49,387 nt of DNA from a virus: positions 1 through 49,387 of IMG/VR virus record IMGVR_UViG_3300009466_000005; one strand, 5' to 3'. The notes below the pieces were generated by a model. The model saw only the letters and a program-made list of their open reading frames with translations, made no database searches and was not told where the DNA came from. Positions 43,744 to 49,387 of this stretch are shown here, piece by piece; position 1 is the first letter of the stretch, and each line of letters opens with the position of its first letter. The translations under genes were made by a program, and so were the position numbers.

Positions 43744-44303
43744 GAAGAGAAGTATCGGCAAGAACTAAAAATCAATCTCAGTTAAATATATTTGAACAAG
43801 TAGATGAAATTGCCAACAAGAAAAGAAAAGGATTTCATGCATTATCCTATAGTTGGTACAAGGATACAGTTGCTGAAGTTGCACGAAAGAATGATATATA
43901 CAAAACACTGGTGACTCTTGATGAAACTTTAATTCCCTCTGGTGGCAATTTATATTTGTTTGAATATAGTGCAACATGGGCAAAAAAACTTCCATATTAT
44001 GATGAGTTTCCTTTAGTGTATATGTTACAAGGTGGAAAGAAATTTTTTGGAGCAAATTTACATTATCTAAATCTTCCAACTAGATATAAAGTATTACAAA
44101 GCATACAAGATGGACGACCAACAATTCCAAAACAGTGCTTTCATAATTATGTTTATGAAGGTCTTGATACACCGCTTTTTAAAATAAATAGTGAAGATTG
44201 GATCAAGTCTATCTTTTTGCCCCTTGAAAGTTTTGTAAGTAGGCAGAAGGGATCATATAAACGAGTTAACAAATCCTTTGTTTGGGGAGACAGCATTAGA
44301 TGA
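43740..44303 (+). CDS. Conserved phage virion-assembly protein, unidentified
   Basis: 187 residues. LYLFEYSATWAKKLPYYDEF and PLVYMLQGGKKFFGANLHYL form a pattern common to many T4-like phages, but I cannot name the gene. Coupled to gp4 and to the next gene (ATGA both sides), so probably head or tail completion. Confidence 0.7.
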   Translation: MRREVSARTKNQSQLNIFEQVDEIANKKRKGFHALSYSWYKDTVAEVARKNDIYKTLVTLDETLIPSGGNLYLFEYSATWAKKLPYYDEFPLVYMLQGGKKFFGANLHYLNLPTRYKVLQSIQDGRPTIPKQCFHNYVYEGLDTPLFKINSEDWIKSIFLPLESFVSRQKGSYKRVNKSFVWGDSIR

Positions 44304-45121
44304 GTATCAATACGATTCCTAAAAATTTTAAAGAGTTCAGAGGATATGTAGAGAGATATGGTTTTTCTCTAAGCAATTTTTATGATATTCAATTTGAACT
44401 TGTTAATGGAAGTGAATTATTAAAAAATTTATTTACTCTTGGAATGACAGGAGATAATAATATAAATGATGAATCATTTATGCAGGGACTTGTCCGAGTC
44501 TATGCGGATGAATGTTCCATTCCAGGATATTCTATTTCTACTGGTGATTATAGAATTACCAATACCCCTACAATGAAATATGCATATGGAATTGTAAATA
44601 ACGAGATTACAATTTCATTTATTTTAGATGCAGACTCTGAAATTAGAAGAATTTTTGATGCTTGGGGCAATTACATTTATACTGGTGTTGCATTGAGGGG
44701 AGCCAATACAGCAAATACCAATATTAATATGAATTCTAAAACAGATTTGGGTAGAACTAGATATAGAGATGATTATTGTTGTGATATAATTGTTATTAAA
44801 CTTGAAAGACACAGAAGCAGTAGAAAAAATACTAGATCTAGAAATAGACAAATAAATATTGAATCTAATTTTTATCGCAATAATGAAATTATTCCAGACT
44901 ATGATAATACTTTTATGTCTGGATTTGGTAAACCATTTGCAACATACTCGGTTAGACTGAGAAATGCATTCCCAACAACTATATCTGCTATACCACTGTC
45001 AAGTGGTTCATCACAATTAGTAAAAGTTCAGGCTACTTTTGAATATGATCTTGCAGTACCTTCATCTCAAACTGGAGCAAACTCTACTAGGGTAACAACA
45101 AGTTGGAATGACATCACCTAA
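44300..45121 (+). CDS. Tail-tube-fold baseplate protein (gp54-like candidate)
   Basis: 273 residues. VRVYADECSIPGYSISTGDY, NNEITISFILDADSEIRRIF and DAWGNYIY follow the T4 gp19/gp48/gp54 tail-tube pattern. With gp48 identified nearby, the tail-tube initiator gp54 is a reasonable guess. Ends at CTAAATAA (45118-45125), a late box for gp26. Confidence 0.65.
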   Translation: MSINTIPKNFKEFRGYVERYGFSLSNFYDIQFELVNGSELLKNLFTLGMTGDNNINDESFMQGLVRVYADECSIPGYSISTGDYRITNTPTMKYAYGIVNNEITISFILDADSEIRRIFDAWGNYIYTGVALRGANTANTNINMNSKTDLGRTRYRDDYCCDIIVIKLERHRSSRKNTRSRNRQINIESNFYRNNEIIPDYDNTFMSGFGKPFATYSVRLRNAFPTTISAIPLSSGSSQLVKVQATFEYDLAVPSSQTGANSTRVTTSWNDIT

Positions 45122-45125: not shown

Positions 45126-45151
45126 TTTGAGATTATGTTATAGTATTCACT

Positions 45152-45862
45152 ATGCCTTTACCAAAAATTGTAACACCGACGTATGAATTGCGTTTACCAT
45201 CAACAGATCAATTAATTAAATACAGACCATTCCTAGTAAAAGAAGAGAAAGTTCTTCTCATGGCTATGGAATCTGAAGATGAAAATCAAATGATCAATGC
45301 AGTCAAAACTATTTTGAAGAACTGCATTATTTCAAAAGTTAAAGTTGATGATCTTGCTGTATTTGATATTGAGTATTTGTTTCTCAATATTCGTGCAAAG
45401 TCTGTTGGTGAACAGATTGACTTAAACATTACATGTCCAGATGATGGAGAAACTGTAGTTCCTATTGAACTCAATGTTGAAGATATTCAGATTCAAAAGT
45501 CTGAAGATCATTCTAGAATTATTCCATTGAATGATACAATTTCTGTTGTAATGAAATATCCTAGTATGGAAATGTTTGTTAAAACAAACTTTACTGCTAA
45601 TGCAAAAACTGAAGATGTATTTGAAATTGCTGCCTCTTGTATTGAGCAGGTTGTAGAAGGTGAAGATGTATATGAAACTAAGAGTTTTAGCAAAAAAGAA
45701 ATTAATGAGTTTCTAGATAGTTTGGATACAGCTCAATTTTTGTCAATTCAAAAATTCTTTGAGAGTATGCCAAAATTATCCCATACAGTTAAAGTTACTA
45801 ATCCAGTAACTAATGTTGAAAGTGATGTTGTATTGGAGGGTCTTGCGTCTTTTTTCGCATAG
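45152..45862 (+). CDS. 26: Baseplate hub protein gp26
   Basis: 236 residues. PTYELRLPSTDQLIKYRPFL, VKEEKVLLMAMES and the central CPDDGE loop match T4 gp26, a baseplate hub assembly protein. The 3' end contains T_TTT_TTC (45850-45856) just before the stop, and a -1 frame continues for 62 codons (see next entry). It lies immediately upstream of the tape-measure-like gene, as tail assembly chaperones do. Confidence 0.87.
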   Translation: MPLPKIVTPTYELRLPSTDQLIKYRPFLVKEEKVLLMAMESEDENQMINAVKTILKNCIISKVKVDDLAVFDIEYLFLNIRAKSVGEQIDLNITCPDDGETVVPIELNVEDIQIQKSEDHSRIIPLNDTISVVMKYPSMEMFVKTNFTANAKTEDVFEIAASCIEQVVEGEDVYETKSFSKKEINEFLDSLDTAQFLSIQKFFESMPKLSHTVKVTNPVTNVESDVVLEGLASFFA

Positions 45863-46044
45863 CCCTAGCACATGAGTCGCTAGAAAATTTCTTCAGAGTA
45901 AATTTCATATTAATTCAACATCAAAAGTGGTCACTATTTGAAATCGAAAATATGATACCATGGGAAAGGGAAATCTATGTTCAAATGTTGATTGATCATA
46001 TCGAAGAAGAAAATAATAAAAATAGAACAACAACATCGTTGTAA
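45856..46044 (+). CDS. gp26 -1 frameshift extension
   Basis: Open in the -1 frame relative to gp26, with no ATG at its beginning: RIALAHESLENFFRVNFILI, then QHQKWSLFEIENMIPWEREI and YVQMLIDHIEEENNK. A slip at T_TTT_TTC would join gp26 residues 1-235 to these 62 residues (297 total). A 5-bp hairpin CTAGC/GCTAG (45865-45883) begins 8 bases downstream of the slip site. May be the gp51-like function. An internal ATG (MIPWERE, 45950) is the only conventional start and would give just a short peptide. Confidence 0.72.
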   Translation, partial: RIALAHESLENFFRVNFILIQHQKWSLFEIENMIPWEREIYVQMLIDHIEEENNKNRTTTSL

Positions 46045-46048
46045 ATAA

Positions 46049-48790
46049 ATGGCAGAACCAACCACTCAGAGATCATTTAGATCTTTTTCTGAGTCACTCA
46101 AATCTAAAAAACTTTCCCCAGTAAATCCATCAGCTATTACTGGGGGAAGACCTATTAGATTGTCTGGAAATATTGTTGCCAAAAAAGAAGTCGAAGAGCT
46201 TGGACAGATTAGAAAAACTTTAGGATCTTTACTTGCAATTGAAAAAAGATACTATAAGTTTCTTGGTGATAGAATTTTAAATTTCGCAAAGGAAGAAGAA
46301 AGAAAAAAATTAAAAGAACGAGAAAGATTACAAGAAGAAGGTAATCAAAAAAAAGGTAAAGATAAAACTTCAAACCCGATTGTAGAGAAAGCAAAATCTG
46401 ATTTATCTATGATTGGAGGATTCTTTAAGAATCTTCTCAAATTCTTCATTGGGTATAAAGTTTTACAGTGGGCATCAAATCCTGCAAACATAAAAAAGAT
46501 TCAGGATTTTGCTAATCTATTCATAAAATTATTTAAATTTATTAGTGCAGTCACTGAATTTGGTGTGGACGCATTAATGAAAACTATTACGGTTACTTCT
46601 AAAGTAATCAATGGAGTATTTGATTTTATAGGTAAAGTAGCAGAATTTTTTAGTTTCAGTTGGTTGGGTGGTGGAATTGAATGGTTGCTCAAAACCATAG
46701 AAGACGTAACCTCAGTATTTGCTAGCATTCCAAATGCCATAACACTGACTATAAAATTTTTAACTAATCTACTACCGAACTTTTTAGAATCAGTTTTAAC
46801 GAATGGACTACTTGGAGGTCAAAAAGAACTTCAGGGTCAATCCGATCAGGCAATAGATGCAAAGAAATCAGCAGAGTCTCCTACTGAAGTTAGTGGAGAT
46901 ACTGATAAAACAGGTCAGAGTGATCTTGGTGAAAAGGCGAAAGAATCTCTATCAAACATTGGTAAAAATATTCTAAAGACTTTATTCCCTGGAATAGATA
47001 TTGCTACCAATATTGGAGCAAAGATTGGTGGCTCTATAAAATCATTCTTTACTGGAGGCAAGTCCCAGGAAGAACTTCCAAAACTAGCAAAAGGTGGTAT
47101 TGTAACTAAACCGACTGAAGCGATTGTTGGAGAGGCAGGACCAGAAGCAATTTTACCACTTGATAAGTTGGGATCATTTGGTATTGATGGATTTAAGGCA
47201 GCCACCAATAAGGTAATTCCTAAATTCATGACCTTACTGACATTACCATTCAAGATTATTGGTGCTGGTATATTAGCATTAATTTCATCTACAGTAGGAA
47301 AAATTCCTGGCATTGGTCAGTTTATAAAACCTTTAGTTTCTAACATTGCATCTGGATTTGGGTTACCTCCAGGATTAGTTTCTGGGATGACTGGATTTAT
47401 TGGTGGTGTTGGTGAGATGACAACATCCGAAGTTGGAAATATTGCAGAGTTATTTGGAAAGCAAGAAGTAAATATTCGACAACAAAAAGGAGAAGAGTTT
47501 AGTCCTTCACGAGATACATCTGTAAAAGGATTACTTGGAAATATTTTGAGTGCATTGATCAGCAAGCAAAAGAAAACGGTTACTCCTGCACCAACAACCC
47601 CGCCAGCACCCACTGCACCACCTTCAGCCACACCTGCAGCTCCTGCAGCCACACCTGCAACTTCAGGGAATGAGCCAGCTGCAACACCAGCTCCCACCTT
47701 GTCTCCAATATTTGATAGGTCTCAGCAATCTGGTGCGGTTCCTGGTCAGGGTGGAGGAGACAAGATTCCAGCACTACTAGAACCAAATGAATATGTGCTG
47801 AATAAAAATGCAGTTAGGGGATTGGGGGGAGCAAAAGAATTAGACAAAATAAATTTTGGGGTGTTTCCTAGATTTCAAACAGGTGGATCTGTATTATCAA
47901 AATTGGGAGATAGTTCTAAATTAGCATCAGCTCCCAGAGGATATTGTGTTACTGGTGTTCTTGATACAATGCAAAAAAATGGAGTGCCCAATCCAGCAGG
48001 AACTTCAAATGATCCAAACAATCCAAGAGGTCTTGCTGCTCAACTTATTAAAAATTATGGTTGGGGATCTATTTCTGGGTTAGGATCACCAATTAATCTA
48101 AAAAGTCCGTATGGAAATGTAGGTGCAAATGCAATGTCATTTTCTGAATGGAAATCTGCGGTTAAAGAAAATAAAATTGTAAGTGGTTCTATCGTATTCA
48201 CAACTAAAAATTCTGACTGGTCTGGAAATCAATCTAGTGGACACGACGCAGCGATTGCAAAGAATGGTGGAAGAAAATTGTGGAGTGGGCATTGGCAATC
48301 ACAAGTCGATGGTGTTGGTGCTGTTTATGGCACAGCATCAAACAAAATAATTGCATTAACTCCTGGCGGTACACAAGTAGCATATGATGGGTCTAAAACA
48401 TCAGATGATGGCGAAACTTCAAATGATCAAGCTCAATCTACAGAATTTACTGTAGAAGCGGCAACAACGGTTGCAGAAAATCTTGGAAAATTATTCAAGA
48501 TGTTAAATGCTCCAGCTCCATCTCAAGATTCTGCACCACCAACAGCAGCTCAAGTACAGCCAAAAATAACTCAAACTGTTTCACAATCATCTGGAAATTT
48601 ACAGAGAGTTCAGAAAGAAAATTTACAACTTCAAAGTCAATCTAGAAGTCAGTCTAAGTCTGGTGGCAATGTTGTCACATTAGGACAGCCAAATAAAACT
48701 ATTAGTGAAACAATTTCTCAGCCAATGCCTGCGACACTTGGTGGTACTAGTCCACCAAATCCATTAATCAATTATCCGATAGCACCATAA
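46049..48790 (+). CDS. Tape-measure-like tail protein with cysteine-peptidase domain
   Basis: 913 residues. N-terminal helical/coiled region (to ~115), hydrophobic segments (KFFIGYKVLQWAS and after), then two motifs typical of tail tape-measure proteins: GGIVTKPTEAIVGEAGPEAI (about 350-370) and GGGDKIPALLEPNEYVLNKN (about 568-590), a Pro/Ala-rich linker between them. Residues about 630-780 look like a CHAP/NlpC-type domain (RGYCVTGVLDTM...SGHDAAIA), perhaps cutting peptidoglycan during DNA entry. Gln/Ser-rich tail. Corresponds in position to T4 gp29. Confidence 0.75.
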   Translation: MAEPTTQRSFRSFSESLKSKKLSPVNPSAITGGRPIRLSGNIVAKKEVEELGQIRKTLGSLLAIEKRYYKFLGDRILNFAKEEERKKLKERERLQEEGNQKKGKDKTSNPIVEKAKSDLSMIGGFFKNLLKFFIGYKVLQWASNPANIKKIQDFANLFIKLFKFISAVTEFGVDALMKTITVTSKVINGVFDFIGKVAEFFSFSWLGGGIEWLLKTIEDVTSVFASIPNAITLTIKFLTNLLPNFLESVLTNGLLGGQKELQGQSDQAIDAKKSAESPTEVSGDTDKTGQSDLGEKAKESLSNIGKNILKTLFPGIDIATNIGAKIGGSIKSFFTGGKSQEELPKLAKGGIVTKPTEAIVGEAGPEAILPLDKLGSFGIDGFKAATNKVIPKFMTLLTLPFKIIGAGILALISSTVGKIPGIGQFIKPLVSNIASGFGLPPGLVSGMTGFIGGVGEMTTSEVGNIAELFGKQEVNIRQQKGEEFSPSRDTSVKGLLGNILSALISKQKKTVTPAPTTPPAPTAPPSATPAAPAATPATSGNEPAATPAPTLSPIFDRSQQSGAVPGQGGGDKIPALLEPNEYVLNKNAVRGLGGAKELDKINFGVFPRFQTGGSVLSKLGDSSKLASAPRGYCVTGVLDTMQKNGVPNPAGTSNDPNNPRGLAAQLIKNYGWGSISGLGSPINLKSPYGNVGANAMSFSEWKSAVKENKIVSGSIVFTTKNSDWSGNQSSGHDAAIAKNGGRKLWSGHWQSQVDGVGAVYGTASNKIIALTPGGTQVAYDGSKTSDDGETSNDQAQSTEFTVEAATTVAENLGKLFKMLNAPAPSQDSAPPTAAQVQPKITQTVSQSSGNLQRVQKENLQLQSQSRSQSKSGGNVVTLGQPNKTISETISQPMPATLGGTSPPNPLINYPIAP

Positions 48791-48791
48791 C

Positions 48792-49387
48792 ATGGAAAAG
48801 TTAACTCCAGTTAGACCAGCTTCCATTATCGGTAATACTCGTCTCAAAGAATTGAAGACGATAAAAGGTGTTGCGACTAATTTAATTTCACAGAAAAAGA
48901 AAAATTTTGATCTAGAAAAAAAGTTTTTTAAAGTCGAAAAGGATTCAATTACTAGAGCTAGGTCATTAGAAAAAGAAAGACAGCAAGAACAAAAGAAACC
49001 GAAGTCGGGTGCGGCTGCAATAAAAAAAGAAATCAAAGAACAGTCAGTAAAGTTATATGATTTGTTCAAATTTTTTGTTGGATATAAAGTCCTTCAGTGG
49101 ATGTCTAAAACTGAGAATATAAAGTCTCTTGGTGAAATTGCAAAGGCAATGCAGAACATATTCAAGGTAATTGATTACCTTGCTGGAATTGGGGTTGAAG
49201 GTGTTCTTGGTGGATTACATAGTGTTTTATTTGGAGGAAGTTTTCTAGAAAGATTCTTTGGAGTGTTCAAAGCCATCGGTGGGCTTTTTATTATCAGAAG
49301 ATTATTATCTCCAGGTAAAATACTTAAAGACATTGCTTGGATTCTAAAGAATAAAAAAAATATTAGTAGAGTATTCAAAGCAATAGG
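48792..49387 (+). CDS. Paralogue of the tape-measure-like protein, N-terminal part
   Basis: Starts MEKLTPVRPASIIGNTRLKE and is open to the window end (198 codons). FKFFVGYKVLQWMSKTENIK matches KFFIGYKVLQWASNPANIK of the preceding protein; both have a charged coiled N-terminus followed by hydrophobic segments. Begins one base after the upstream stop. Likely a second tail-interior protein arising by duplication. Confidence 0.75.
   Translation, partial: MEKLTPVRPASIIGNTRLKELKTIKGVATNLISQKKKNFDLEKKFFKVEKDSITRARSLEKERQQEQKKPKSGAAAIKKEIKEQSVKLYDLFKFFVGYKVLQWMSKTENIKSLGEIAKAMQNIFKVIDYLAGIGVEGVLGGLHSVLFGGSFLERFFGVFKAIGGLFIIRRLLSPGKILKDIAWILKNKKNISRVFKAI

Follow-up and report, generated by a model that had tools for sequence, protein, structure and literature searches.

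The gp26 gene of the virus record IMGVR_UViG_3300009466_000005, from a T4-like marine cyanophage, very probably encodes two tail assembly chaperones rather than one, the longer being made by a −1 frameshift at the heptamer T_TTT_TTC close to the 3′ end of the gene. The whole 49,387-base record was analysed and is referred to below as the window; its relevant features are listed in Table 1. Most ribosomes would terminate at the TAG at 45860, releasing gp26, and a fraction, with two Phe-tRNAs on UUU UUC, would move back by one base onto UUU UUU and continue to 46044, giving a 297-residue fusion of gp26 with a tail of around 62 residues. Contact of the anti-Shine-Dalgarno sequence with GGAGGG upstream of the heptamer would probably raise the rate of slipping, as would a downstream hairpin in many relatives. 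By analogy with G/GT of phage lambda the short and long forms would both associate with the tape measure protein as the tail is assembled, and a chaperone role for gp26 and for the fusion is likely on grounds of homology and of this analogy. We infer the slip and its rate; the site, its phase and conservation, the homology of the two parts and the gene order are observations made here.

The idea of frameshifting in T4-like phages is already published and is not new. According to later papers, Vladimirov, Gautam and Davidson (2022, Virology 566:9-15) identified the tail assembly chaperones of T4-like phages; one of these papers cites the work on poly-T slippery sequences in the chaperone genes of T4-like phages (PMC12846349), and the PRFect paper cites it for the statement that some T4-like phages have, in place of frameshifting, a short gene alongside a longer fusion (PMC10885494). 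Since both the T4-like chaperones and the poly-T sites have been described before, the window locus is a further case of a known kind of frameshifted chaperone. The survey, the hairpin classes and the tests on codons and on Shine-Dalgarno pairing are results of the present analysis and may overlap with the content of the 2022 paper.

The gp26 locus and its overlapping frame

In the frame of the open reading frame at 45152-45862, gp26 closes with the codons TCT TTT TTC GCA TAG (45848-45862), and the heptamer lies, to the base, where the initial annotation had placed it. In profile searches the gene product matches PF12322 (T4_baseplate; E 4.4e-74) and phrog_150 (E 3.9e-81). The −1 frame has no stop between one lying around 11 codons 5′ of the heptamer and the TAA at 46042-46044. 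Counted from the TTT at 45850 it contains 64 codons, two of them for Phe and 62 beyond, and its translation reads FFRIALAHESLENFFRVNFILIQHQKWSLFEIENMIPWEREIYVQMLIDHIEEENNKNRTTTSL. The initial annotation had described an open frame of 62 codons, conserved in appearance and with no ATG near its start, and this description holds: no ATG occurs before codon 35 (45952), which is within the conserved domain; a profile search places the product of 45850-46042 in phrog_634 (“baseplate hub assembly catalyst”; E 1.2e-25), with a weak match also to the final part of phrog_150; and relatives keep the extension in −1 phase.

Table 1. Features of the gp26 locus in the window
Feature	Position	Strand	Basis or remark
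Tail tube gene, upstream of gp26	44300..45121	+	PF23849 E 3.8e-15; phrog_45 E 2.1e-28
gp26, short form (putative tail assembly chaperone, N-terminal domain), 0 frame, 236 aa	45152..45862	+	PF12322, phrog_150
Internal Shine-Dalgarno-like GGAGGG, proposed upstream stimulator	45835..45840	+	9 bases 5′ of heptamer
Slippery heptamer T_TTT_TTC, canonical X_XXY_YYZ register	45850..45856	+	Sequence, conservation
−1 frame extension RIALAHE..., codons from CGC 45856, to TAA 46042-46044	45857..46044	+	phrog_634
0-frame stop TAG of gp26	45860..45862	+	One codon past heptamer
Weak hairpin, CTAGC 45865-45869 / GCTAG 45879-45883, 8-base spacer	45865..45883	+	Position of relatives' stronger hairpins
Large gene, tape measure candidate, 913 aa, downstream	46049..48790	+	Weak tape measure family matches

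The upstream neighbour of gp26 is clearly a tail tube gene, and the downstream neighbour is a candidate tape measure gene by weak matches only, to phrog_12798 (E 2e-4), phrog_10093 (E 1.2e-4) and NF058675 (E 9.4e-5, below the cut-off of that model). The product of 46049-48790 shares an N-terminal region, containing the motif FF(I/V)GYKVLQW, with that of the adjoining 48792-49385; the two genes look like tandem paralogues, and the window may thus hold two tape-measure-like proteins. Separately, Shine-Dalgarno pairing, present at the tail tube gene (44300), is lacking at the ATG of gp26 (45152) and at the ATG at 46049 (regions 45130-45157 and 46027-46054). Synonymous constraint within gp26 is strongest at the third codon (Leu, 45158-45160), which is TTA in 75 of 78 genes and which perhaps serves to keep the mRNA start open.

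Conservation of the slippery site

The extension was matched by tblastn in 539 phage records, mostly of cyanophages but also of Vibrio, Sinorhizobium, Methylophilales, Pelagibacter and Pseudomonas phages, and 80 relatives were obtained by scanning viral contigs. In 84 of 85 sequences (the scan relatives and five phage records) TTTTTTC stands one codon ahead of the gp26 stop, the exception being Melnitz-3, which has T_TTT_TTT immediately 5′ of the stop. Three further scans and more records raised the sample to 225 sequences, among which the window is present a second time as L001, and six-frame searches with one profile model for each part, gp26 domain and extension, served to classify them. 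The gp26 domain is followed by the extension in −1 phase in 183 of them (about 163 distinct, as some loci overlap or repeat). A further 39, all of the T4/RB43 type, carry both parts in one open reading frame together with a second gp26-domain gene, and in the remaining three, whose contigs stop within the gene or soon after it, the gp26 domain alone is present. Neither a lone fusion nor a +1 arrangement was found among the 225.

Alignment of this junction across relatives, suggested in the initial annotation, found T_TTT_TTN in register in every one of the 183 sequences with −1 phase, with the 0-frame stop one codon past the heptamer in 155. The last base of the heptamer is C in 149, T in 23, A in 9 and G in 2; it is free even where the 0-frame Phe becomes Leu, whereas the six T that determine the codons of the −1 frame are invariant. 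T_TTT_TT(C/T) is kept in the outer relatives KVP40, D479, PX29, AS-zj, Moby, phiM7, pf16, HTVC008M, IC12 and S-CRM01, and site, phase and extension are together retained in Kyanoviridae, in KVP40-like and other outer Straboviridae and in Sinorhizobium, Pseudomonas pf16, Pelagibacter and Methylophilales phages. The slippery site is not universal, since Det7 (Ackermannviridae; L229, around 2589) and Vibrio K362 (L228, around 2223) have an extension-like −1 frame past their gp26 homologue with no X_XXY_YYZ heptamer; these Ackermannviridae-type phages may use a different slip site or re-initiation.

Whether the nucleotides of the heptamer or Phe-Phe alone are conserved was examined in a codon-aware comparison of 79 genes of less than 85% nucleotide identity. 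The two Phe codons are TTT and then TTC in 79 of 79, while Phe codons elsewhere in the same genes are TTT and TTC in a ratio of 645 to 230, and TTTTTC occurs in none of the 76 other Phe-Phe pairs; these counts come from related genes and should not be taken as independent trials, although synonymous positions adjoining the site do vary. The codon ahead of Phe-Phe (AGT, TCT, GCT, AAT, GAT or GGT) ends in T in all 79 genes, compared with 68% of Ser, Asn, Ala, Asp and Gly codons elsewhere in them, and in-frame T_TTT_TTY occurs only once elsewhere in the 79. This shows that the nucleotides at the site are held, and not Phe-Phe alone.

The extension could instead be a small gene in its own right, annotated as “gp51” (baseplate hub assembly catalyst), with an independent start or reached by re-initiation past the gp26 stop. 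GenBank records such as those of P-HM1 and KVP40 do annotate a separate open reading frame, and an ATG is present at the sixth −1 codon in 56 of the 163 distinct loci. Start positions nevertheless vary across the family where the heptamer does not, and in the window the first −1 ATG falls mid-domain. Furthermore, a good Shine-Dalgarno sequence lies 4-10 nt upstream of the first −1 start in 2% of the family only, against 72% with one 6-12 nt before the heptamer, and T4 gp51 fuses the same two parts. An independent start was rejected on this survey of Shine-Dalgarno sequences and start positions, and we regard a separate gene as very improbable. With frameshifting as the preferred reading, the many cyanophage records in which gp26 is called “baseplate hub” and the extension is either entered as a truncated gene of its own or left out should show one gene with two products; the extension is unannotated in several phage records and begun at an internal ATG in others.

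Sequences flanking the heptamer

The GGAGGG upstream of the heptamer has an anti-Shine-Dalgarno dG of −9.8 in the window. Pairing across the family peaks at the same place, with a mean of −7.1 kcal/mol against −5.3 ± 0.15 under synonymous resampling, so that the element is stronger than synonymous codon choice predicts. Its spacing to the heptamer is similar to that in dnaX.

Downstream, the 50 nt past the heptamer form the deepest folding trough in the neighbourhood, with a family mean of −11.1 kcal/mol and a mean z of −2.27, and half of the loci have z below −2. No single fixed stem covers the whole family. The sole clear winner of four stems tried was an 11-bp stem, fully paired at a frequency of 0.126 compared with at most 0.038 in slid controls; among its 37 distinct loci one pair is T-A in 21, A-T in 7 and G-C in 7. 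A GGTCC..GGACC stem class did no better than slid controls (0.157 against up to 0.182). The initial annotation had proposed a CTAGC/GCTAG hairpin in the window, and both its position and its 8-base spacer are as described. It is not significant on its own: the 50 nt downstream fold with −7.0 kcal/mol and z = −0.56 against dinucleotide shuffles, which is no better than chance. Because it is so weak this hairpin was rejected as a stimulator and is not counted as evidence.

The same two proteins could also be made from mixed mRNAs, were RNA polymerase to slip on the T run, and in Melnitz-3 and HTVC008M the run does reach 8. It is only 6-7 in most loci, which is short for such slippage; moreover the reading-frame register is fixed, and the run is flanked by a Shine-Dalgarno-like site and a hairpin, elements that act on ribosomes. 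Polymerase slippage is thus very improbable, more so than a separate gene. A sequencing error or broken gene, conceivable in a virus contig of unknown quality, has a negligible chance of explaining an arrangement found in 183 sequences, those of isolates as well as of independent contigs.

T4 gp26 and gp51, and comparison with known systems

A 2010 review (PMC3004832) places T4 gp26 and gp51 among the chaperones of hub assembly; gp51 is needed but is not part of the particle. The initial annotation had guessed that they might be counterparts of the two forms, and comparison of the sequences bears this out. Both T4 proteins (208 and 249 residues) belong to PF12322 and are encoded on opposite strands. 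The phrog_634 family of the extension is present in T4 gp51 (residues 147-246), giving a positive answer to the comparison that had been suggested, and is not in T4 gp26; gp51 aligns over the whole of the cyanophage fusion, extension included. T4 gp26 ends ...GLKEFFELL, three residues past Phe-Phe, where the short form ends. Because T4- and RB43-type loci carry an in-frame fusion and a short paralogue, T4 gp51 is, as judged from sequence, the counterpart of the fusion and T4 gp26 that of the short form. This suggests a testable role for two proteins long called hub proteins of unclear function.

The separate short paralogue is on the opposite strand in 34 of the 39 loci, as in T4, and on the same strand in five, as in RB43. 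In this RB43 type (L094, L198-L201) gp51 and gp26 adjoin on one strand, unlike in T4, and its gp26 may share the duplication of T4 or have a different origin. A tree of the gp26 domain splits the frameshift genes from the gp26 and gp51 genes at one branch with support of 99/97; gp51 forms one group and gp26 one or two, and either frameshift or duplication may have come first in this unrooted tree. The pair of short and long forms thus appears to be kept either by frameshifting or by duplication. We favour, with moderate confidence, the broader reading that strong selection would maintain this chaperone pair across the T4 superfamily, either through a −1 frameshift with two stimulators (the internal Shine-Dalgarno sequence and clade-specific hairpins) or through the T4/RB43 duplication, such that T4 genes 26 and 51 would represent, in split form, what is elsewhere one frameshift gene.

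An AlphaFold2 model of window gp26 (pLDDT 85.7) found no significant fold in the PDB, the HK97 tail assembly chaperone 2ob9 ranking eighth (E 1.1, probability 0.21), and no solved structure was found by a sequence search; its matches among viral models were mostly to other T4-like hub proteins and to unnamed relatives. The suggestion that this is the counterpart of lambda G/GT stands by arrangement and analogy, with no detectable sequence homology. The lambda gene lies between the tail tube and tape measure genes, and gp26 of the window between a tail tube gene and a tape measure candidate assigned by weak matches. The −1 slip, known in lambda and very probable here, is near the 3′ end in both, and the long form is the short form with a second domain. 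The lambda frameshift was reportedly described by Xu, Hendrix and Duda in 2004. Lambda G is PF06894 and T is PF06223, whereas window gp26 is PF12322; in Pfam searches neither gp26 nor the extension matched either lambda family, though the lambda controls matched their own, and the slippery site and stimulators also differ.

The flanking elements find a parallel in dnaX of Escherichia coli, which has an internal Shine-Dalgarno sequence around 10 nt upstream of its −1 site and a hairpin downstream; there the slippery sequence is A_AAA_AAG, the gene is unrelated and the shift shortens the protein. Another similar arrangement is the locus of Pseudomonas phage Adele and the Vandenendeviridae, a different phage family in which a poly-T −1 site, GTTTTT, is conserved and the −1 frame is routinely annotated as a separate gene, as in relatives of the window (PMC12846349); this likeness is one of locus arrangement. 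T4 obtains its two forms from two genes on opposite strands and the window virus would do so from one gene and a slip, with PF12322 common to both and a short and a long form in each; the two offer a natural comparison between recoding and duplication as ways of keeping one protein in both a short and a long version.
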